Positions 15,866 through 42,092 of a stretch of 64,000 nucleotides of DNA are shown here, one piece after another. Location of the stretch: NCBI RefSeq assembly GCF_008801695.1, contig NZ_VZPF01000005.1:1-64000 (forward strand), written 5' to 3'. Below the pieces are notes generated by a model. The model was not told the DNA's origin. It saw only the letters and a program-made list of their open reading frames with translations, and searched no databases. A program made the translations under genes and the position numbers. This DNA comes from Pantoea stewartii subsp. stewartii (GTDB lineage: Bacteria > Pseudomonadota > Gammaproteobacteria > Enterobacterales > Enterobacteriaceae). Position 1 is the first letter of the stretch, and each line of letters begins with the position of its first letter.

Positions 15866-17188
15866 TTACAGTGCCTCGTAGTTCCCGAACGCGATGATCA
15901 GGCCGTACGTGTAGCAGTCGAAAAGGTCATCAGCGCGTTTATGCGCTTTCGGGTCGGCCAGGTGGAAACCGGCAATCTGGCGCCAGAGGTGGTTAGCGGT
16001 CTTTTTCTTAAACTCGACCGTTTTATCGAAAGCAGGTTTGGCGATCTTTGCTTTTTCCTGCCAGTGATGACCGGACGCCAAAACTGCCCTTTCGTCTTTC
16101 CCCTTAGAGGTCAATACCGATTTTATGGGCTTCATATCCCATTCTTCGGTTTCGGCTTTCTGGTTGAGGATGGCACCCATTGCAGCGTCTTCCATGAAAA
16201 CGCCCTGGCTCCCATGACGGGGGCGGCAAATCTTCGCCAGCCGTTCGAGGTTGTTGTAAACACCCGGCATATATTCCGGGAGTAACGACGCTTTAATCTG
16301 CGTCACATCCCAGTCAATGATGGTCAGCCGCGGTTCTGAGTAGGTTTCTTCATAAGCGAAGTAAACGAACCCGGTGCCGTCGTTTTCGGTACCGCCTTTC
16401 AGTGCGGTATCAGCCACCGCGAAGATCATGTCGCAGGTAGTTGGCATATCGACGGGCAGGCCATCCACCAGCAGTTTATTCACGTCCAGCAACGCTTCTT
16501 TCGACCAGTCGATAAACTTGGCCAGAAATTCCTGCTGCCATACACGGGGGTCTGTAGTTCGCTCTATCTCCGCCAGCTCATCTGCCGGAAGGTGAGGGTT
16601 TGATGAAGACGGTGCATGATGCTCATGGAAGCCGTGAGCCGGGTCGTTACAGATGGCGTAGAAAAAGTTCTGATCGTTAATACCGTCAGGTGTGGAAAAT
16701 ACCCAGGCGCGGCCACGATAATCCACCAGCGTTGGCTTGATAGCGCGGGGCCAGATTTCTTCCAGCATTTCCGGTGATTTGGTAAACGCAGCTTCATCGA
16801 TCAGGACGCAATGATATTTACGGCCACGGCCTGCCAGTTTGTTATCGTCAGTAACCCAGAAATCTATCTTGCCGCCATTCTTCAACAGAATTCGCTTCTC
16901 ACTGCGAGACTGCGTTTTGATCAGCGGCTTAAGGTATTCGACTAACTCGTCAAAGATTTCCTGATATTGACGATATTGCGCGGTAAAAATCCCCACGCGA
17001 CCGGCTATAGATCTCTTGGTACCAGGTATTACAAATTTATTGGTGACATAGCTTATCGCTATATCAACCAGCATTACTGTTTTGCCCCACCGTCGGCCAC
17101 AACGAATCGCGTTGTATCTGTGCTCAGATCCTGCCGTCCAGACGCGTAGTTGCTCGGAATGCAATTCCGGTAAGAATATTTCCGCCAC
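15866..17188 (-). CDS. Terminase large subunit
   Basis: A 440-residue packaging motor. Walker A is GRRWGKT at residues 31-37 and Walker B VLIDEAAF with Asp131/Glu132. The nuclease domain acidic residues appear in AVADTALKGG, VFMEDAAMG and the C-terminal KRADDLFDC. Together with the upstream small subunit it cuts concatemers and pumps DNA through the portal. Length and motif order are normal, so it looks functional. Confidence 0.9.
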   Translation of the reverse strand: MAEIFLPELHSEQLRVWTAGSEHRYNAIRCGRRWGKTVMLVDIAISYVTNKFVIPGTKRSIAGRVGIFTAQYRQYQEIFDELVEYLKPLIKTQSRSEKRILLKNGGKIDFWVTDDNKLAGRGRKYHCVLIDEAAFTKSPEMLEEIWPRAIKPTLVDYRGRAWVFSTPDGINDQNFFYAICNDPAHGFHEHHAPSSSNPHLPADELAEIERTTDPRVWQQEFLAKFIDWSKEALLDVNKLLVDGLPVDMPTTCDMIFAVADTALKGGTENDGTGFVYFAYEETYSEPRLTIIDWDVTQIKASLLPEYMPGVYNNLERLAKICRPRHGSQGVFMEDAAMGAILNQKAETEEWDMKPIKSVLTSKGKDERAVLASGHHWQEKAKIAKPAFDKTVEFKKKTANHLWRQIAGFHLADPKAHKRADDLFDCYTYGLIIAFGNYEAL

Positions 17189-17200
17189 GATACACCCTGC

Positions 17201-18229
17201 TTATTCAGCGCCTGGCGGCTTCAGCGAATTGTGAATAATGATCTGCTCGTTACCGTTCGCTCCATTACGGAGGTTTTCGATTTCGGCTTTGATTTTTTCA
17301 TTGCTCAGGCGGACACGTTCGATTTCGAGTAACCGAAGTTCTCTATCCTGTTCGCTGGAGGCCAGATTGTGGAAAGCTGCAAGGTTTTTCAGTGCAGCGT
17401 CCTGGTCACGCGTCATGACCTCGATGCCGAATTTAGTTTTCTTCACCCCGGCGATAAGACGACGAGCCGGGCCTACTAAATCCCGCGTATCAGCAAGGAA
17501 AACATCTTCGATGCCCTCACCTGCGCATTTAGGACAATCAGGGTTGGGGTCGTCGTTAGCCACAAAACCAAATCCACCTGACTGATCCGGCGGCGGCTTG
17601 CTGTCATTCGCTGCTTTGGCGGCGGCCTTGTCATACTCGGTTTCATCAATCCACTGATAACGGTTATCGAATCCCCAGCAGTAACGGCAGCACACACGGC
17701 GCATCTGAGAAATCTCGCCGGGATCGGCAATCGCTATTTCATGCCAGTGCCTGAGAATATCCTGGGCGTTTAATATGGCCTGCTCGGTTAACTGCTCAAT
17801 GCCCTGGTTAATGGCTCTCGCCACCGCTGGCTTGCGATACAGCATTCGGGCGTTTCTGTCGCCTCCGGTATAACCTGCCTTCCGGTATGCCTCGTACTTA
17901 TTGCGGCACTCCAGATAGTAGGAAACGAACAGTTTTTCTTTATCCGATAGATCTGCGCAAAAAGGGGATCTTTCGGGATCAGGTTTTGCGCAGTTTTTTA
18001 CTGCCCTCCCTTTTCCCATTCCCTGCTCTGGAGCAGCTTTATCAGGATTCTGCGCAACTACCTGTGCAGTTTTTTTTTGCGCATTATTCTGCGCAGACTT
18101 TTTTATGTAGCGGCGGGCTGTGTCGTAAACCAATCCCTGCTGTTCACACCAGTCTTTCAGCTTTATACCCGTACTGGCGTGAGCGGCAGCAAACTGAGAT
18201 TGCAGCGCCTTCCAGTCGGGTTTGCTCAT
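17201..18229 (-). CDS. Terminase small subunit with zinc-ribbon-like insertion
   Basis: A 342-residue DNA-recognition subunit resembling Terminase_2. The N-terminal 60 residues look like a separate helix-turn-helix (KDWCEQQGLVYDTARRYI). The core starts near residue 95 with LSDKEKLFVSYYLECRNKYEAYRKAGY. Around 180-240 are CRYC and CPKC pairs that could bind zinc. The ATG at 18229 overlaps the preceding stop as TGATG. Its place directly before the large subunit confirms the role. Confidence 0.8.
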   Translation of the reverse strand: MSKPDWKALQSQFAAAHASTGIKLKDWCEQQGLVYDTARRYIKKSAQNNAQKKTAQVVAQNPDKAAPEQGMGKGRAVKNCAKPDPERSPFCADLSDKEKLFVSYYLECRNKYEAYRKAGYTGGDRNARMLYRKPAVARAINQGIEQLTEQAILNAQDILRHWHEIAIADPGEISQMRRVCCRYCWGFDNRYQWIDETEYDKAAAKAANDSKPPPDQSGGFGFVANDDPNPDCPKCAGEGIEDVFLADTRDLVGPARRLIAGVKKTKFGIEVMTRDQDAALKNLAAFHNLASSEQDRELRLLEIERVRLSNEKIKAEIENLRNGANGNEQIIIHNSLKPPGAE

Positions 18230-18486
18230 CAATCACTGTCCTTACTGCGCGAAAGTCTCATCAGCTCGTTATAGGCGTATACGTCACCGTTACGGGCGCG
18301 TTTGTATAACGCCCCTCGCAATTCGGCCTCGCCTTTAGCCGTCCCGATACGGATGGCCTCGCGAAATAGCGCTAACCTCTCCCTGTCCTGCCTCAGTTCG
18401 TCCATATCAATATCGAGCACGTCTGCAATCTGCTGTTCCGTCAGACGACGGGCGGCCAACGCCTCTACTTTTTCACGAACGAACAT
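18229..18486 (-). CDS. Small helix-turn-helix protein upstream of terminase
   Basis: An 85-residue basic protein. I choose the ATG at 18486 because GAGGT lies 6 bases upstream. The first half, EQQIADVLDIDMDELRQDRERL, looks like a homeodomain-type DNA-binding unit; the rest is helical (AYNELMRLSRSKDSD). It ends at the start of the small terminase gene, so it may aid recognition of the packaging site. That role is inferred. Confidence 0.55.
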   Translation of the reverse strand: MFVREKVEALAARRLTEQQIADVLDIDMDELRQDRERLALFREAIRIGTAKGEAELRGALYKRARNGDVYAYNELMRLSRSKDSD

Positions 18487-18494
18487 AAGCACCT

Positions 18495-19361
18495 CTACGA
18501 TTTGATATGCAGTACCATTCCGTAGTCATTAGTGCCGGCAGGCAGTTCAATATCCTCTTTCAGGCGAAGGCGCAGTTTTTTGAATCCCCGATAATCAACG
18601 TAATGATGGACACGCCCAAAGCGGTACGTCATACGGGAAATATCGGGGTGCATCTCAACCTGCATTTTGCTTTTGTTATACGTACCCTCTTTCGCGTAAA
18701 ACTCAGCAGTGTTTCCACCCTTTGTTTTTTGCGTCTGGATTTTCTGTTGCAGGAACGCATTGAACTGAATCGTGCACCATCCCGCCTTCAGCATTCTCAG
18801 CGATAAATCCGTATCCTCGTTGTAACGCCCTCTCCACCGAAACGGGAGGTCATTACGAATGAGGTTGCAGGAGTAAATGCGGGTATTGGTAACGAATGGC
18901 GGTTGCTTATCCCTCTCCGGAGCAAACATGGCATAGTTAGGCCCAGCCATCCCCACGTTTTCGTACCGCTGCACAAAATCCTCCATACAGCGGAAAATGG
19001 TTCCGTCACCCACACGGATCCGCTTGTTTTTATGCAGGCGGAAAAAATGCCGGATGTTGTCGTCCATTACCCAGTGCCAGGCGTACCCGTTGGCAATCGA
19101 GTGATCCCACGCAAAATTTCGCGCAGCTCCCGGGCCGACACTTTTTGTCAGCCCCAGATCGTCAAAGGTGTCATAGTCACGCTGGTATTGTTTATCGAGC
19201 ACCAGAATATTTTTCGCATCAATGACCGCGGCGTACTGGTCATATTCTGTTTCCTCGATCACGATGTGATACGGGACACCGATATGTTCCAGCGCTTTCG
19301 CCGTCATGCGCGTATCTGCCCGGCCTTTACTGACGATATAAATCGGGTAATTAGGATTCAT
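18495..19361 (-). CDS. TET-associated glycosyltransferase-like (TAGT) protein
   Basis: A 288-residue predicted GT-A glycosyltransferase. The sequence shows an N-terminal PIYIVSKGRADTR strand, an ARNFAWDHSI helix and WHWVMDDN with Asp100-Asp101-Asn102 in the place of the metal-binding DxD. A later segment RGRYNEDTDLSLRMLKAGW fits the acceptor side. This pattern is that of the TAGT/GREB1-like family, proposed from comparative genomics to glycosylate oxidised bases in phage DNA. No TET/JBP oxygenase or base hydroxymethylase is visible here, so the acceptor is unknown. Overlap with the ParB-like gene suggests joint action. Confidence 0.7.
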   Translation of the reverse strand: MNPNYPIYIVSKGRADTRMTAKALEHIGVPYHIVIEETEYDQYAAVIDAKNILVLDKQYQRDYDTFDDLGLTKSVGPGAARNFAWDHSIANGYAWHWVMDDNIRHFFRLHKNKRIRVGDGTIFRCMEDFVQRYENVGMAGPNYAMFAPERDKQPPFVTNTRIYSCNLIRNDLPFRWRGRYNEDTDLSLRMLKAGWCTIQFNAFLQQKIQTQKTKGGNTAEFYAKEGTYNKSKMQVEMHPDISRMTYRFGRVHHYVDYRGFKKLRLRLKEDIELPAGTNDYGMVLHIKS

Positions 19362-19983
19362 CGCTGATGTATGCCTTATTCACCGTGGATTCCCGTTTAT
19401 GCTCCGGGTACCAGATATATTTCGTTTTTGCCGTGATCTGCTGCTGCACAAGCTGAGCGAACAGCGCAACGTCAGCGTCCGTTTCGAAATGCACGATAAG
19501 CTGCCGGACTCCGTTGTTGTTCTCCTGGTCAAATGCCGGCATTCCCACCCAATGATCTCTCGGATCGTCTGGCTCAACGCCCAGGATATCCCCCAATTCC
19601 AGATCACTGAATCCCAGAAGCCCGACGTCAAACTCAACGTCCTGCAATGCCTCAATTTCCAGTTTAAGTAGCTCACCATTCCAGCCAGCATTCAGCGGAA
19701 GCCGGTTATCAGCTATCCGGTATGCCGCCTTTTGTGCGTCAGTGAGCCCTGAAAGTGTAATTGTGGGAACGGCAGCAATTCCCATCTGCTCGGCGGCCAG
19801 TACCCGGCCATGCCCGGCAATAATTTCGCCGCATTCATCAATAAGTATCGGGTTCGTCCAGCCAAACTCCTCAATGCTCGCCACAAGCTGCAACACCTGC
19901 CGATCGTCATGCGTTCGGGCGTTGTGAGCATATGGGGTTAAATCCTTTAACGGTCGATAGACGATTTTCAGTTTCTCGGTCAT
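19351..19983 (-). CDS. ParB-like (ParB/Srx fold) protein of modification cassette
   Basis: A 210-residue protein starting MTEKLKIVYRPLKDL; the ATG at 19983 has GGAG just upstream. Residues 1-95 are a ParB N-terminal domain with the hallmarks GEIIAGHGRVLAAEQMG and AAYRIADNRL. The C-terminal half (LIVHFETDADVALFAQLVQQQ) is a separate alpha/beta domain. Such proteins occur in phages beside DNA-modification enzymes and terminases, where a nuclease or CTP-dependent DNA-binding role has been suggested. No ParA partner is present, so classic partition is unlikely. Confidence 0.75.
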   Translation of the reverse strand: MTEKLKIVYRPLKDLTPYAHNARTHDDRQVLQLVASIEEFGWTNPILIDECGEIIAGHGRVLAAEQMGIAAVPTITLSGLTDAQKAAYRIADNRLPLNAGWNGELLKLEIEALQDVEFDVGLLGFSDLELGDILGVEPDDPRDHWVGMPAFDQENNNGVRQLIVHFETDADVALFAQLVQQQITAKTKYIWYPEHKRESTVNKAYISDES

Positions 19984-20105
19984 ATCTCCGCTCTCTGATA
20001 AAAAAGCAGTAACGATCAATGCGCTGGGTGCGCGGCGGGTACCATTACGGCTTTAACAATCACTATCGGGCACCATCGTAATGACACCCTGTAGTGGCTG
20101 CTGTT

Positions 20106-20723
20106 TTAAATCCGGCAAAAGGCATAGCTACCAATGCCATCACGACCAAGCTCGCTCTCGCGGTTGTTGTGCTCCACCAGCTTAAATCCGTTGGCCGCAA
20201 ACCACTTTATGAGTCCATCATGAGTCCAGTACCAGATATGCTCATCACGGCGGAAATGACGGGACCGCAGTACATGCTCTGCGCCCTCAAAGATGGGTAC
20301 TGAAACAAATACCCATTTTTCCGCCCGAGCGATGGCAACCTCTGGCCGATCGATATGTTCCAGGGAATCCCAGAACGTCAGCGCCGGATATCGGTCATGG
20401 TATAAATGCGCCCACTGTCCTCGCGCTTTCAGCCACTCAACGCCCGCAGGATTTACATCAAATCCCTTGGTATCCGGCCGCGCTTCAACAAATTGCCCCG
20501 CACCGATGCCAACATCCAGAACAACACCGCTGTAATGTCGCGAAACTAACTGGATCCGCGCCGCAGTCAACTCTCTACCGAGTTCGGTATCGGCCAGTTG
20601 CTGGTATCGTGAAAAATAATCTTCATCGTACGGTCGATGGGCTTTCGGTACCGGGTAACGACCAATACCCAATTCAGGCAACCAAGCCAGGCCGTGTTTG
20701 ATTTGCTCAGAGAAATACTTCAT
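20106..20723 (-). CDS. Class I SAM-dependent methyltransferase
   Basis: A 205-residue methyltransferase. Motif I is LDVGIGAGQ (from residue 69), followed by GFDVNPAG (acidic ribose-binding strand) and FWDSLEHI, the strand-4 signature of Methyltransf_11/23 enzymes. No NPPY or PC motif of DNA methyltransferases is present, so a sugar, small-molecule or modified-group acceptor is more likely. It is coupled to the GT gene by a start-stop overlap. A 120-base gap without a gene follows before the ParB-like gene. Confidence 0.75.
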   Translation of the reverse strand: MKYFSEQIKHGLAWLPELGIGRYPVPKAHRPYDEDYFSRYQQLADTELGRELTAARIQLVSRHYSGVVLDVGIGAGQFVEARPDTKGFDVNPAGVEWLKARGQWAHLYHDRYPALTFWDSLEHIDRPEVAIARAEKWVFVSVPIFEGAEHVLRSRHFRRDEHIWYWTHDGLIKWFAANGFKLVEHNNRESELGRDGIGSYAFCRI

Positions 20724-21628
20724 GCGGCCACTCGCTTTCGTGATGCCTGGTAGACGTTTTCGATAAATGACTGCACCCGTGAAAAAAGCCCGCTGATTGT
20801 TTTGTCACAAGCGTGTTTCATCTCCTGGCACCGGCAATAGTTATCCGGGTATACAAACAACGCGCGGGATAAATCCATACAACGGGGATCGGTAACTTTA
20901 GAGTGGTGATTATTGCCGCCATTGCCGCCCTGCAAGCAGATCATCGGTTTACCGTAAGCAAGCGCAGCGTGCATAACGACACATGCACCCGTAAGCACTA
21001 TGTCGGCCCTTTCCACCAGCGCCAGCATCTGCGTGATAGAAAGCTGGCCATCATGCAGTTTCCGATGCGCGAAAGGTTCCAGATCAGGTATCCACTCCAG
21101 ACCAGGCTCGTTATCTGCAATGCTGAGAACATGAAAACCACGTATCGCCAGTAACCGGGAAACTTCATCTACATATTTGTTCAGCGGCCCGCGGCTGGCA
21201 TTGTGCCACTCAGTACGTTCTGTGGTGGGACGTATAACGGCTATTGGCTTACCGTCCGGTACCGGAATATCCGGCGCATGATAATGCGGTAAATCCATCG
21301 CTGCCGGCCGAGTGCCAAACTGCTGTTGCATTGCGTCGAATATGCTCCCGGCCTGAAGATGGCCATTGCCGTAAAAAATGCGCTGACGGGGGATGCCTGG
21401 CGGTTCAGGTTCAAATCTCACCGATGTGCTTTGCTCGTTCTTACGCTGCGTGCGCAATGGCGTATTGGCCTTCACGAAATGCAGGTTCGGGATCCCGGCG
21501 TAAATTTCCGGAAGTGGCGTTCTCAGCCATACCTCTTTTCCCTGCTTGACCAGCGCCTTAATGAAGCAGCGCTGGTTGATATTGTCACCGATGCCGTGCA
21601 TCCCGTCGAAGTACAGTTTTCCAGGCAT
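20720..21628 (-). CDS. Glycosyltransferase, GT-B heptosyltransferase-like
   Basis: A 302-residue protein starting MPGKLYFDGMHGIGDNINQR, with GAGG upstream of this ATG. The GIGDN loop near the N-terminus, and the C-terminal ADIVLTGACVVMHAALAYGKPMICL, are those of GT9 heptosyltransferase-like GT-B enzymes, where the second binds the nucleotide sugar. A CRCQEMKHAC segment near the end could bind metal. It may modify phage DNA or a surface glycan; the sequence does not decide. Confidence 0.65.
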   Translation of the reverse strand: MPGKLYFDGMHGIGDNINQRCFIKALVKQGKEVWLRTPLPEIYAGIPNLHFVKANTPLRTQRKNEQSTSVRFEPEPPGIPRQRIFYGNGHLQAGSIFDAMQQQFGTRPAAMDLPHYHAPDIPVPDGKPIAVIRPTTERTEWHNASRGPLNKYVDEVSRLLAIRGFHVLSIADNEPGLEWIPDLEPFAHRKLHDGQLSITQMLALVERADIVLTGACVVMHAALAYGKPMICLQGGNGGNNHHSKVTDPRCMDLSRALFVYPDNYCRCQEMKHACDKTISGLFSRVQSFIENVYQASRKRVAA

Positions 21629-22166
21629 AAAGTGCCGCCTCAAGTGGTAAACGTTTAAAGCAAGTCAGCGCGGTCTCGCGTGACGCGTTGATAATTTCCA
21701 CGCCCGGCAGAGCACCAGCGAGAGAAGAAAAGTCGGTGTGCCAGCGCCCTACTTCGCGCGGTACCGGATTATGCATCGTTGCCGGGTGGCGCCCATGCCA
21801 GTGTGCGCCGTTCACCAAAGTGCAGTCATATCCGAGAAGAATCACCCTCTCTGCGCCGAGGTGTGCGGCGAGTTGAATGGCACGCTGCCCGGAGTTGAAC
21901 GGCCCATTGTCTGATGGGGTGAAAAGCTTCACGCCGAACCGGGCATGAGCCCGTTTACTCTGGGTCCATAGTTCGGCGCTGGTTTCCAGCGAATCGTGGT
22001 AATGGTCCCACCAGGTGAAATCGGCAGCGAAAATGTGCCGACAGTCTGGCACGGCCCTCCAGCTCGAATTAACTGCAATGACCGGGTAACCGGAGCCGGA
22101 GGCCTGTGCGCAGTCGTTCGCCGTCAGCGACGGGCCGCTGGCGACGCAGATATAGGTTTGGGTCAT
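21585..22166 (-). CDS. MptE/GT42-like Rossmann protein
   Basis: A 193-residue protein. It begins TYICVASGPSLTANDC, a nucleotide-binding GPSL loop, and contains NSGQRAIQLAAHLGAERVILLGYD and the C-terminal GVEIINASRETALTCF. This motif set is shared by sialyltransferase-like GT42 enzymes and the MptE/DUF115 diphosphokinase fold, so a transfer from an activated sugar or pyrophosphate is likely. First gene of the cassette; it overlaps the next GT gene. Confidence 0.6.
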   Translation of the reverse strand: MTQTYICVASGPSLTANDCAQASGSGYPVIAVNSSWRAVPDCRHIFAADFTWWDHYHDSLETSAELWTQSKRAHARFGVKLFTPSDNGPFNSGQRAIQLAAHLGAERVILLGYDCTLVNGAHWHGRHPATMHNPVPREVGRWHTDFSSLAGALPGVEIINASRETALTCFKRLPLEAALYAWKTVLRRDARHR

Positions 22167-26003: not shown

Positions 26004-26380
26004 TGTTGACCGCCTCCCTGCTCCAGCTTCAGGCCGTTCTGATATTCATTACTGAATCCCGCCCAATGGGCGCGGCGTATTGTTATCCCTTGCCCTGGAG
26101 AATAAATAATGCGGCGTACCGTCTGGGGATAGGCAGGGAGTTCACGAATGCAGATTGGGCAATGATCAACTGTTTCAATCTGGCAACCCTTCCCGCGGCT
26201 GCATATGTGTATCCTGGCCTGCTGCATGGTACAGCTACTGCACATTGGTGCATCGCAGGTATATGGGTGAAGTGGGTCTATGAACTCCTGTCCGTCTACA
26301 ACTTTCGGTGGGTAGCCGAGACGCCCATCGCACAATAGCGTCGCTGGTGATCCACAAAACATGCAGGGTTCTTTTTTCAT
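25988..26380 (-). CDS. Cys-rich zinc-binding protein, unknown function
   Basis: A 130-residue protein starting MKKEPCMFCGSPATLLCDG, with CxxC pairs at CMFC, CSSC and CPIC. Several zinc sites are likely. It is coupled to the Dam gene upstream and the DUF1364 gene downstream, in the nin-like region. No named family is recognised. Confidence 0.6.
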   Translation of the reverse strand: MKKEPCMFCGSPATLLCDGRLGYPPKVVDGQEFIDPLHPYTCDAPMCSSCTMQQARIHICSRGKGCQIETVDHCPICIRELPAYPQTVRRIIYSPGQGITIRRAHWAGFSNEYQNGLKLEQGGGQQCLDL

Positions 26381-27030
26381 GCTGCCACCCCGACCAACTT
26401 TATTGCCGCACGCTGTATCTGAGTCAGGATCATGCGGCCTGTGGATTCAAGTTCTTCACGGCTGATGTAGCTCGTCGCTTGGCCCGTCCATGTTTTATCG
26501 AATATCGCAATCGCCATACCGAAACCGGCAGAGGATTCAGACGGTTCTCCTTCTGCGGGAATGTACCAGTCAGGAAGGTCAAAGCTGATGCGGCCACGGA
26601 CGAAGGCTATGTGATCAGCATTCTCCGGCCACCAGCTTTCGCTTGTTGCTGACTTAATGAAAAATACATACCTCCCGCCCAGTTCCCGCATCGCAGCGGC
26701 GTGCTGCATGATCGGCACCATCCCCGTGATGTACTCACCTTCAAATTGTTGAGCACGACTGTATGGCGGGTTAGCGTACGCGGCACCACCGAGGAATCCG
26801 AGGCGAGCGGACCAGTCCTGCACCAGCGCATTATCTTCGGCGGTGTAGTAGTTATCACATTTGGTGTTGTGGTCGTCGGCAAACAGGTCAAGTGAAAACG
26901 GGCCAAATTTGGCGTTTATTCCCCACCAAATCGCATCTGGTGTACGCCACTGATCGCCGACTTCTTTCAATTTGTGAGACTGACGGTTACGCAGCGCTTC
27001 GAGTGATTTACAGTATGGATTAAGGTTCAC
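26377..27030 (-). CDS. Phage N6-adenine DNA methyltransferase (Dam-type)
   Basis: A 217-residue enzyme of the phage Dam family (PF05869 type). The catalytic motif is NPPYS in AAYANPPYSRAQQFEGEY, and the N-terminal WRTPDAIWWGINAKFGPFSLDLFADDHN is characteristic. It would methylate adenine in phage DNA using SAM, probably to evade restriction or tune GATC-dependent events. Start and stop overlap neighbours by 4 bases. Confidence 0.85.
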   Translation of the reverse strand: MNLNPYCKSLEALRNRQSHKLKEVGDQWRTPDAIWWGINAKFGPFSLDLFADDHNTKCDNYYTAEDNALVQDWSARLGFLGGAAYANPPYSRAQQFEGEYITGMVPIMQHAAAMRELGGRYVFFIKSATSESWWPENADHIAFVRGRISFDLPDWYIPAEGEPSESSAGFGMAIAIFDKTWTGQATSYISREELESTGRMILTQIQRAAIKLVGVAA

Positions 27031-39025: not shown

Positions 39026-40666
39026 ATGGGCGAAGTGACAGAAATCCTGTACGGAGAACTGTCGGATGGGGCGTTTTTCGCCCCTGCTTCCTCCGACCTG
39101 GTTGATTCCCTGATCGGCCAGTACAAGCAACTCCGGGCCGATATAGAAATGATGTTCGGGTTAATTAACACGCACCATGTATCGGTTCACCATTTTCTGG
39201 AGGGTAACCAGGACCATGATCGGCGGCATTATTTCGGCGGCGTCAGCAATCTATTTAAGCTCGAAGGCGCTATCGCCAGCCTGAATGCAACATTCTGGCA
39301 AAAAGCCCTGAATATGACCGACGTATACGAGTACATGCCGAACAACCGACGCACCGAGTGGAACGAGCAGATCCGGGAAATGAAAACGCCCGACTTCGAA
39401 GAAGAGACCGTGCGGCCGACAATCATGGAACTGCTTAACTCACGTCAGAAATTTTTCTCCGAGCGAGTGGATGGCATTTTCCGCGCTCTTTCCGGCGACC
39501 ACGTTACCAACAGGCCGGAAGGTTTCGGTAAGCGCATGATCCTTGCCCGGGTGTTCAACGACTACGGAACAACCAATCATGATATGAGCGGCTATATCCA
39601 GGACTTGCGGCAGGTGATTGCTAAATTTATGGGCCGCGATGAACCCCGCTGGCGTGTAACCGACGATGCACTACAGGAAGCACGCTGCCGCCACGGTGAA
39701 TGGCTGGTGCTGGACGGTGGAGCATTGCGTGTCCGGGCTTATCTGAAAGGTACAGCACACCTCGAAGTACACCCGGATATGGCCTGGCGGCTCAACTGCA
39801 TTCTGGCGCACCTGTACCCGCTGGCAATCCCGCCGCAATTCCGCCAGAAACCAAAGAAAAAACTCAAAGATTTTGTGCTGATGAGCAAACCGCTGCCGTT
39901 TGCTGTTCTGGAAATACTGGCAGGGCTGAAGGCTGAGCGGCACACCCCGATTCATCGCAACCGCTGGGATGAGCCGACACAGCCCCTGACTACCAATCCG
40001 TACAACCGCCGATTTGACTGGCGCGACGAAGACAAAGCGATCCGGGGCCAGGCGGGGAAAATACTGGAAACCATCGGCGGCGTGCTGATCAAAGCGGGCC
40101 CAAATAAAAATATCAACATCTGGGAATTCGACTATGACCCCGCCCGGGTGCTAGGCGAGATTATCGCGTCCGGGTGCATTCCGGATCATCAGTCTCACCA
40201 GTTCTACCCTACCCCAGAATCACTGGCTGAATGGGCCGTATCCGAAGCTGATATTCAAGCAAGTGATAGATGTTTGGAGCCGAGTGCCGGCACAGGGAAT
40301 CTTGCCGTACTGATGCCGGCAGACCAGACCCAGTGCGTGGAAATCTCAGCGCTGCACTGTCGGGTACTGGAGGCGAAAGGTTACGCCGTCGAACAGGCTG
40401 ATTTCATCCAGTGGGCCGAAGCCACCAGCAGCCGCTTTGACAAAGTGGTAATGAACCCACCGTTCAGCGAAGGACGAGCCAAAGCACATGTGGAATCTGC
40501 TGCCAGCCTGGTTAAACCCGGCGGCCGTCTTGTGGCCATCCTGCCCGGAAGTATGCGGAAAAAAGATATTTTGCCCGGCTGGTCATGTAGCTGGTCTGGA
40601 CTAATTGATAACGAGTTTGACGGTACCGGCGTTTCAGTCGTCATGCTGAAAGCCGATCGCAAGTGA
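39026..40666 (+). CDS. DUF4942-domain adenine methyltransferase
   Basis: A 546-residue protein. The N-terminal ~220 residues are DUF4942-like (SLIGQYKQLRADIEMMFGLIN through QDLRQVIAKFMGRDEPRW). The C-terminal domain is a class I methyltransferase with motif I EPSAGTGNLAVL (around 415) and NPPF in VVMNPPFSEGRAKAH, typical of N6-adenine enzymes. It would modify phage DNA in a sequence-specific way, likely as protection against restriction. Second adenine methyltransferase of this prophage. Confidence 0.75.
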   Translation: MGEVTEILYGELSDGAFFAPASSDLVDSLIGQYKQLRADIEMMFGLINTHHVSVHHFLEGNQDHDRRHYFGGVSNLFKLEGAIASLNATFWQKALNMTDVYEYMPNNRRTEWNEQIREMKTPDFEEETVRPTIMELLNSRQKFFSERVDGIFRALSGDHVTNRPEGFGKRMILARVFNDYGTTNHDMSGYIQDLRQVIAKFMGRDEPRWRVTDDALQEARCRHGEWLVLDGGALRVRAYLKGTAHLEVHPDMAWRLNCILAHLYPLAIPPQFRQKPKKKLKDFVLMSKPLPFAVLEILAGLKAERHTPIHRNRWDEPTQPLTTNPYNRRFDWRDEDKAIRGQAGKILETIGGVLIKAGPNKNINIWEFDYDPARVLGEIIASGCIPDHQSHQFYPTPESLAEWAVSEADIQASDRCLEPSAGTGNLAVLMPADQTQCVEISALHCRVLEAKGYAVEQADFIQWAEATSSRFDKVVMNPPFSEGRAKAHVESAASLVKPGGRLVAILPGSMRKKDILPGWSCSWSGLIDNEFDGTGVSVVMLKADRK

Positions 40667-40732: not shown

Positions 40733-40984
40733 ATGGCCAGAATGGTGAGCTTAGAAGAATGGGCGGCGGAAGAATTTGGAAGTTTAGCCCCCAGCCTTCG
40801 CACATTAAAAAAATATGCCAAGGGCCACATGATGGCACCACCAGCCAGAAAAGTAGGCAGAGAGTGGATGATTGATCGTGAAGCCCGATTTATCGGCATT
40901 TTAGCTGAACCAAAAATCGCACCGACCGCAAACCCCAAGCTGAGAAGGATTATTGAAGATGGCTGCCAGACCACGAACCCATAA
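40733..40984 (+). CDS. xis: Excisionase (Xis)
   Basis: An 83-residue basic protein with SLEEWAAEEFGSLAPSLRTLKKYAKGH, the winged-helix pattern of phage excisionases, and VGREWMIDREARFI. It bends DNA at the attachment site and directs integrase toward excision. It overlaps the integrase start by 26 bases, the usual xis-int order. A start at 40742 is also possible. Confidence 0.7.
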   Translation: MARMVSLEEWAAEEFGSLAPSLRTLKKYAKGHMMAPPARKVGREWMIDREARFIGILAEPKIAPTANPKLRRIIEDGCQTTNP

Positions 40985-42092
40985 AATAACCATCCCTAAT
41001 CTGTACTCAAAGCTGGATAAGCGTACCGGGCGTGTGTACTGGCAATACAAACACCCTGTAACGGGTAAATTTCACAGCCTCGGTACTGATGCTGAAGAAG
41101 CCAGACAGGTCGCCAGTGAGGCCAACGACATTATCGCGGAGCAGCGTACCCGGCAGATCCTCAGCGTTAACGAAAAAATCGCCCGTATGCGTGAGTCCAG
41201 AGAATTTATCACCGTAACAACCTGGCTGGATCGCTACCTTGCTATCCAGCAGGAACGACTTGAAACAGGAGATATAAAATTGAACTCAGTAAAACAGAAA
41301 AAAAAGCCCGTTGAACTGCTGCGCCAGCACTCCGGGATGATGTATCTGAAAGATATTACCACGCTGGAAATCGCGGAGGTCGTGGATGCGGTAAAAGCCC
41401 AGGGCTACAACCGTATGGCGCAGGTTGTCCGGACAACGCTGATCGACGTGTTCAAGGAAGCCCAGCACGCCGGACATGTTCCCCCCGGCTACAACCCGGC
41501 ACAGGCAACTCGCCAGCCGCGTAACCGGGTAATACGCGAACGCCTTTCCCTTGAGGAATGGAAAGAAATTTACGCCGCGGCTGAACACCACCCGCCCTAC
41601 CTTCAGTGTGCAATGCTACTGGCCGTTGTCACCGGGCAGCGCATAGGGGATATTTCCCGGATGAAGTTCTCTGACATCTGGGATGATATGCTCCACGTCG
41701 AGCATGAAAAGACTGGCGCCAAAGTGGCGTTGCCATTGTCACTGCGTTGTGAAGCACTGAATATTACCCTGCGTGAGGTTGTGGCCAAATGCCGCGATGC
41801 CGTAGTCAGTAAATACCTGGTACATTTCCGGCACAGTACATCGCAGGCCACGAGAGGTGATCGGGTTTCGGCTAACTCCATCACCACCACATTTAAAAAA
41901 GCCAGAAACCGCACCGGTATTTTATGGCCTGACCGGAAGGCTCCAACATTTCACGAACAGCGTTCACTGTCCGAAAGACTGTATGAGGCTCAGGGGATCG
42001 ATACGCAAAAATTACTCGGTCACAAGTCACCTCAACAGACGGCAAAATACCATGATGACCGTGGAAAAGACTGGACGGTTGTAGCCGTCTGA
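40959..42092 (+). CDS. int: Tyrosine integrase, e14/phage 21 type
   Basis: A 377-residue tyrosine recombinase. Start at ATG 40959 (MAARPRTHKITIPNLYSKL), matching the e14 integrase N-terminus; the upstream TTG frame is not needed. Catalytic residues are Arg228 (TGQRIGD), His332 and Arg335 (HEQRS), His355 (LLGHKS) and nucleophile Tyr364. It integrates the phage into the 3' end of icd, as seen by its convergent position 120 bases from icd. Confidence 0.9.
   Translation: MAARPRTHKITIPNLYSKLDKRTGRVYWQYKHPVTGKFHSLGTDAEEARQVASEANDIIAEQRTRQILSVNEKIARMRESREFITVTTWLDRYLAIQQERLETGDIKLNSVKQKKKPVELLRQHSGMMYLKDITTLEIAEVVDAVKAQGYNRMAQVVRTTLIDVFKEAQHAGHVPPGYNPAQATRQPRNRVIRERLSLEEWKEIYAAAEHHPPYLQCAMLLAVVTGQRIGDISRMKFSDIWDDMLHVEHEKTGAKVALPLSLRCEALNITLREVVAKCRDAVVSKYLVHFRHSTSQATRGDRVSANSITTTFKKARNRTGILWPDRKAPTFHEQRSLSERLYEAQGIDTQKLLGHKSPQQTAKYHDDRGKDWTVVAV

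Follow-up and report, generated by a model that had tools for sequence, protein, structure and literature searches.

A stretch of 64,000 nucleotides (the window) from Pantoea stewartii subsp. stewartii (assembly GCF_008801695.1) was analyzed; it forms the start of contig NZ_VZPF01000005.1, one of 352 contigs of a 4.9-Mb genome. The first 42.1 kb or so of the window were read as a prophage, whose lambda-type integrase lies at 40953-42092, and five consecutive genes on the minus strand of its late region were the subject of the present study (Table 1). The sequence-only reading made earlier of this DNA had described these as five consecutive late genes ahead of the terminase, and all five were found in place with open reading frames (ORFs). 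The same reading had taken them for one cassette, a view that did not hold. The genes fall into module A, comprising a ParB-like protein and a TAGT glycosyltransferase, and module B, comprising an MptE-like protein, a GT-B glycosyltransferase and a methyltransferase dependent on S-adenosylmethionine (SAM). The strongest new point of the analysis is a small coupling domain by which TAGT is connected with ParB and, in the ParB form, with the terminase.

Table 1. Genes and domains of the five-gene set and of the adjoining terminase region.
Feature	Position in window	Strand	Module	Length and evidence
MptE-like / phrog_4603 protein, relative of P1 PmgO	21585..22166	(-)	B	193 aa; phrog_4603 E=1e-55
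GT-B (GT9/heptosyltransferase-like)	20720..21643	(-)	B	307 aa; PF01075 at cut-off, phrog_6804 E=9e-72
SAM methyltransferase	20106..20723	(-)	B	205 aa; PF13489 E=8e-11, phrog_6564 E=2e-82
ParB/Srx-like N-domain + C-terminal TAGT-partner domain	19351..20019	(-)	A	222 aa; phrog_620 E=2e-56
C-terminal TAGT-partner ('W-x-x-MP') domain	19351..19605	(-)		within residues 139-222 of the ParB protein
TAGT glycosyltransferase (GT-A type by literature)	18495..19361	(-)	A	288 aa; PF20691 E=3e-47
Small-terminase-like protein between TAGT and TerS	18229..18492	(-)		87 aa; phrog_309 E=2.5e-16
Terminase small subunit TerS	17201..18232	(-)		PF03592 E=3e-19
Terminase large subunit TerL	15866..17188	(-)		PF03237 and phrog_2

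The TAGT of the window belongs to the TAGT family PF20691, whose profile was matched with 161.6 bits (cut-off 27.5) over positions 1-205 of 205. The triads D100-D101-N102 and N181-E182-D183 were invariant in all 108 TAGT cores scoring above 200 bits; DDN and NED are motifs of GT-A enzymes, and the conserved residues are predicted to be catalytic. A sequence search of the PDB with the TAGT gave nothing useful. A further TAGT-like domain, divergent in sequence, precedes the TAGT at two loci (L090:7352-9743 and L038:7749-10834); the one in L090 forms a fusion with ParB and the coupling domain.

The ParB protein of the window, which is surrounded by late genes, scored slightly under the cut-off against PF02195 ParB_N (23.6 and 26.3 bits respectively), and a profile of its own family reached Spo0J/Noc chains down to E=1e-12 in hmmsearch. 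The top PDB matches of its AlphaFold2 model (mean pLDDT 87; underlying alignment built without the row of locus L047, which had masked letters) were ParB and Noc, with a Foldseek E-value of 2.7e-8 and moderate TM-scores of 0.49/0.59 against the ParB structure 7bm8. As modelled, the protein has the ParB-N fold of the ParB/Srx superfamily, and it consists of a ParB/Srx domain with some 70 conserved residues after it. The four aligned homologues all start at the position matching ATG 19983, which is the probable start codon. The sole intergenic gap of the five-gene set, between the methyltransferase and ParB, measures 86 nt, or about 122 nt if that start is used, while the remaining junctions overlap, that of the ParB and TAGT ORFs by 11 nt.

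The C-terminus of the ParB protein is a small TAGT-partner domain, a point missed in the sequence-only reading. Six long TAGTs (Vibrio phages 1.076 and 1.124, Kuja twice, phiAS5 and POP12) supplied their N-terminal parts alone for a profile, which recovered the window ParB with E=5e-18. Elsewhere the domain is fused to the TAGT N-terminus, stands alone as an ORF before the TAGT, or shares a single frame with ParB on one side and TAGT on the other; Pfam gave no match for this region in three long TAGTs, nor did PHROG for two stand-alone ORFs. From the genome and viral scans came 111 TAGT loci, of which 107 were used (L024, L030, L047 and L051 had no TAGT core ORF in the filter) and 102 were assessable, five having too little upstream sequence. 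Searched for within 1.5 kb upstream of the TAGT, the domain was upstream of it or fused to it in 100 of these 102, and was unseen in L038 and L050; L038, scored as lacking it, has a sub-threshold match (E=0.021) and clusters with a domain carrier, L039. Clustering at 90% yielded 83 clusters, four with truncated loci only, and 78 of the other 79 held a domain-bearing locus. No ORF-level copy of the domain lay more than 2.5 kb from the TAGT in the 107 loci. Among the 100 coupled loci, the domain was in frame with ParB in 65 and without a detected ParB in 35.

When the viral sequences were scanned in reverse with the domain alone, the TAGT core was present in every one of the best 80 of 444 loci and ParB in 39 of the 80, and 67 of the 80 had no mid-locus 200-nt word in common with the first viral set. 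The gap between domain and TAGT had a median of 14.5 nt and a maximum of 898 nt, with 69 of the 80 within -50 to 200 nt. The earlier view that TAGT and ParB belong together is supported. In a natural triple fusion (L040), ParB, domain and TAGT occupy one 673-aa frame, with a ParB_N slightly under the Pfam cut-off, ahead of a small helix-turn-helix (HTH)-like ORF and an ORF of the terminase cluster. In phiAS5 a second short ORF after the TAGT (L011:4894-5094) matches the domain profile weakly (E=3e-6). No description of a ParB-TAGT coupling domain was found in the available parts of open-licence papers, among the matches listed.

Linkage to packaging genes was assessed at the 46 loci whose flanks reached 3 kb or more in either direction, using a terminase cluster that includes the Pfam-confirmed TerL of the window. 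TerL was near the TAGT in 26 of 33 ParB-form loci and in 2 of 12 without a detected ParB (Fisher p=2.7e-4), and the association of the TAGT-ParB pair with terminase is thereby upheld. Across loci, the families recurring around TAGT were ParB/coupling domain (97 loci) and terminase (53), followed by a family at 24 that was TerS-like HTH by eye. A second kind of TAGT (type 2), divergent from type 1 and accompanied by a ParB with a different C-terminal part, had ParB directly upstream in 79 of 79 loci and, in 71 of 73, a TerS no more than four genes away. In EcoS-673R7 the order is trkG, ParB, TAGT type 2, a small ORF, TerS and TerL. The Rac-type segment carrying type 2 had matches in 1572 of 5426 complete Escherichia coli genomes, with at least 80% of the query covered in 863. 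The K-12 Rac prophage (L252, 4878-5481) holds short ynaK (87 aa) and ydaY (119 aa) where other E. coli hold a full ParB-TAGT, and from position and annotation the two are probably remnants of that pair. Relatives of the TAGT-ParB unit occur in viruses of both bacteria and archaea: the pair described for type 2 recurs in Lactobacillus phi jlb1 (L479, 3274-4849), in the order ParB-TAGT-TerS-TerL, and in the archaeal tailed virus HHTV-2 (L478, 3196-4858), which encodes ParB gp21, TAGT gp22 and, further on, TerL gp31.

The partners of ParB in this slot vary between TAGT type 1, TAGT type 2 and a DAM-like plus GNAT set. ParB is followed by an ABC/GNAT protein in SL25 and by a ParB-methyltransferase in 613R2, and at L096:1901-5808 a TAGT fused to an SNF2-type helicase precedes an N6_N4 DNA methylase. 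As a separate observation, L249:10600-13017 holds, before the terminase, a DAM-like-phage1 and GNAT-phage-like protein (PF22555/PF22559, Pfam), an opposite-strand DUF488 gene and a different ParB; proteins visibly similar to this DAM-like and GNAT module are found in L224, L229 and L230. Sets of this type form an alternative, perhaps Mom-like, DNA modification module.

Taken together, module A is probably a DNA-directed glycosyltransferase complex that places sugar onto phage DNA around packaging, its acceptor being unexplained. The ParB/Srx-like domain would bind DNA or nucleotides and, through the small C-terminal domain, be coupled to the TAGT. The latter would glycosylate phage DNA at a late stage of infection, near packaging, with the sugar as a probable shield against nucleases. 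DNA is the most likely target, as had been proposed earlier, because of the fusions, the partner swaps with types of DNA modifier and the terminase linkage; the timing and the protective benefit, like the substrate itself, are inferred.

Several observations weigh against module A acting on DNA in this manner. Linkage and fusion are no proof of substrate. The 35 coupled loci without a detected ParB, in which a few ORFs above 200 aa may hide a diverged DNA-binding part, show little terminase linkage (2 of 12). The spacing of domain and TAGT fell outside -50 to 200 nt at 11 of the 80 reverse-scan loci. The samples, being the best 80 of 592 and the best 80 of 444, lean to window-like sequences, and many of the type-2 loci are near-identical E. 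coli copies. Finally, no hydroxyl-making enzyme was found with module A, in searches of which the TET/JBP part had no positive control, which leaves no obvious acceptor for known TAGT chemistry.

With respect to the acceptor, the thymidylate-synthase-type profile PF00303 had a single match in the own genome, on a different contig and taken to be host thyA, and none in the prophage. It was present in the four large TAGT records tested (POP12, Kuja, phiAS5 and henriette), had no match in the small TAGT records 1.076 and 1.124, and was absent from HHTV-2, phi jlb1 and EcoS-673R7. Among 50 TAGT records, mostly viral and many of them fragments (the records of 47 of the 80 viral TAGT loci and three phages, with none of the 31 genome loci), PF00303 was found in one and a C5-methylase in three. 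The TET/JBP profile had no match in the own genome, and its counts were 0 of 10, 0 of 50 and, over 398 further genomes, 0 of 398; it was equally silent in 14 control genomes, so that its silence is not evidence of absence. The earlier statement that neither a TET/JBP oxygenase nor a base hydroxymethylase is visible was sustained in part, namely for a thymidylate-synthase-type hydroxymethylase in the prophage, whose ORFs were partly family-scanned. The unit may work without a hydroxylase of its own; otherwise the enzyme is encoded elsewhere or is unrecognized.

The last of these options would mean that the prophage or its host makes the hydroxylated base by an enzyme, TET/JBP-like or other, that escaped recognition, and module A would then resemble known TAGT systems. 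We regard this as a possible though doubtful explanation. The TET search without positive control leaves room for it, as do several prophage ORFs without a family, whereas no third family recurs around TAGT comparably to ParB/coupling domain and terminase, and the low counts of PF00303 and C5-methylase in the 50 records, fragmentary as many are, speak in the same direction.

Alternatively, ParB, coupling domain and TAGT could be self-sufficient, placing sugar directly on unhydroxylated DNA (for instance on the amino group of a base or at the end of the molecule) at packaging in phages and archaeal viruses alike. This is rather unlikely, and we know of no described chemistry for sugar transfer directly to ordinary unhydroxylated DNA. 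If true, DNA glycosylation without a hydroxylase would amount to a novel chemistry of DNA carried unnoticed by widespread prophages, most of the type-2 segment being present in 863 of 5426 complete E. coli genomes.

It is also conceivable, with small probability, that the TAGT glycosylates a protein (terminase, capsid or tail) or a surface glycan, ParB being a mere neighbor without common function. Such a target would agree with the failure to find an acceptor-making DNA enzyme in the own-genome and 50-record PF00303 searches, and the slot does host accessory genes such as trkG; the near-obligate coupling domain, the fusions with ParB and with a helicase, and the exchange of partners with DNA modifiers point to DNA instead.

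The MptE-like protein of module B scored 23.2 bits against PF01973, under the cut-off of 34.6 and with 29 residues covered, and phrog_4603 is annotated as 'alpha-2;3-sialyltransferase'. A sequence search of the PDB with this protein gave nothing useful, and the fold matches of its model (pLDDT 92.5) were weak and mixed, namely human sialyltransferase 6apl (TMq 0.48), thiamin pyrophosphokinase 3k94 (TMq 0.42) and, with the best E-value, an NADP reductase. The structure comparison proposed in the sequence-only reading for all five proteins was run for this one and for ParB, and for the latter it gave the ParB and Noc matches above. The GT-B protein reached 22.2 bits against PF01075 GT9 (cut-off 22) and weakly matched heptosyltransferase 1psw (E=0.011). 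Relatives of the MptE-like protein are shared by the pmgO-pmgP-ppp-pmgQ set of P1 and by D3, PAJU2 and Eowyn, with 39% identity to P1 PmgO and 39-49% across these sets; D3, PAJU2 and Eowyn also carry relatives of the GT-B and the methyltransferase, and none of these records had a type-1 TAGT match. P1 PmgP (L007:4947-6133) weakly matches the PmgO family phrog_4603 (1.8e-5), and PmgO and PmgP may be paralogues. The genes pmgO, pmgP and pmgQ are listed as non-essential (PMC10695390).

Of 181 module-B loci retrieved with MptE-like or GT-B queries, 142 distinct viral loci were kept after removal of identical key proteins. All three module-B genes were present in 87, and a TAGT was in the fetched flank of at least 11, a lower bound since some loci are short and the ORF picker can miss genes (L325 and L326 have a ParB without a labelled TAGT). 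In the phage collection, none of the 23 TAGT-type-1 records was among the 29 GT-B records at the applied cut-off. Inspection of 20 viral loci found with the window GT-B (L217-L236) showed that the slot following the methyltransferase held ParB with TAGT type 1 in 7, ParB with TAGT type 2 in 4, ParB with DAM-like/GNAT in 3 and no such module in 5, with 1 uninformative. Identity between the window and L053 was about 97% for ParB and TAGT, 93% for the MptE-like protein, about 80% for the methyltransferase and about 75% for the GT-B, and therefore modules A and B have separate histories. The five-gene region thus resembles a site at which exchangeable modules lodge rather than an operon of fixed content.

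These data bear directly on the possibility of a single DNA hypermodification pathway, in which the GT-B would add a first sugar, the TAGT a second, and the MptE-like protein and methyltransferase would finish the product. Adjacency, shared strand and shared order in several enterobacterial phages are in keeping with it, as is the analogy of a GT-B enzyme followed by TAGT in T-even phages (PMC13216743). The scarcity of a nearby TAGT at module-B loci, the non-overlapping phage records, the five slots without TAGT or other modifier and the unequal identities to L053 render such a pathway distinctly unlikely, and the three genes of module B make up a glycan module of their own. Its genes lie amid head-tail genes by annotation in D3 and PAJU2; in 118 loci whose neighbors were clustered, an HK97 gp10-like connector comes immediately afterwards in 36, a tail terminator in 32 and TerS in 25, the connector and tail-terminator labels being by-eye sequence readings. 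Because many loci are thus read amid head-tail genes and mostly have no nearby TAGT, it is somewhat more likely, at low confidence, that module B decorates a virion or host component or surface glycan. That module A could be a device for defence or superinfection exclusion rather than self-modification is highly improbable: ParB-superfamily proteins are discussed as antiviral effectors in PMC10853773, but the genes occupy a late-gene place by the terminase and TAGT is found in large T4-like and Ackermannviridae phages.

Among known systems, the TAGT of T6, with a modelled GT-A fold, adds glucose to already glucosylated phage cytosine, according to PMC13216743. Compared by family and description, the T6 beta-glucosyl-HMC-alpha-glucosyltransferase (phrog_842) belongs to the same Pfam family PF20691 as the window TAGT; it works after hydroxymethylation and a first glucosyltransferase, whereas no such enzymes were found in the window prophage, whose TAGT comes with ParB and the coupling domain. 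The ParB-TAGT arrangement before terminase is alike in the E. coli Rac-type ynaK-ydaY region, where the TAGT is of the divergent type 2 and the ParB has another C-terminus. Iyer et al. 2013 reportedly predicted TAGT/ParB/TET neighborhoods with ParB beside TAGT in a DNA-modification setting; ParB beside TAGT is common to both, and in the present case no TET was found (with a profile lacking a working control) and the coupling domain and terminase linkage were measured. ParBc proteins of unknown precise role are mentioned for many CmoX contigs in PMC12783734; CmoX systems and ParB-methyltransferases similarly pair ParB with a DNA modifier, which there is a carboxymethyl- or methyltransferase and here a glycosyltransferase. 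Solitary TAGT homologues without alpha- or beta-GT were counted in 288 of 753 phage genomes and their role left open in PMC13216743, the main text of which does not contain the word 'ParB'. To this question in print, one type of TAGT is now given a partner domain, which often links it to ParB and terminase.

Purifying selection acts on all five genes, as the ratio of nonsynonymous to synonymous substitution rates (dN/dS) was about 0.03-0.04 for TAGT, 0.05-0.08 for ParB and 0.05-0.10 for the MptE-like protein, GT-B and methyltransferase, with dS saturated for some GT-B and methyltransferase pairs and the pairs not independent (L021 and L218 are identical, as are L053 and L226). Near-copies of the window TAGT occur in Erwinia sp. 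OLFS4 (L021, 99%) and in viral contigs L052 (100%) and L053 (98%). A megablast of the five-gene cassette against phages gave no match, and a wider 10.9-kb query against the 5426 E. coli genomes matched only over a 4% DUF2514 stretch in 2 genomes. The genes just upstream of the set are presumably lysis genes, judging by the annotation of relatives (DUF2514, Rz, endolysin/spanin). On the other side, the 87-aa ORF after the TAGT has no Pfam match and aligns with part of the small-terminase family phrog_309. The contig starts within the prophage tail region, the further phage end being outside the window. Other prophage genes, at 26377-27030 and 39026-40666, encode a Dam-type N6-adenine methylase (PF05869) and a DUF4942 protein that weakly matches a methyltransferase.

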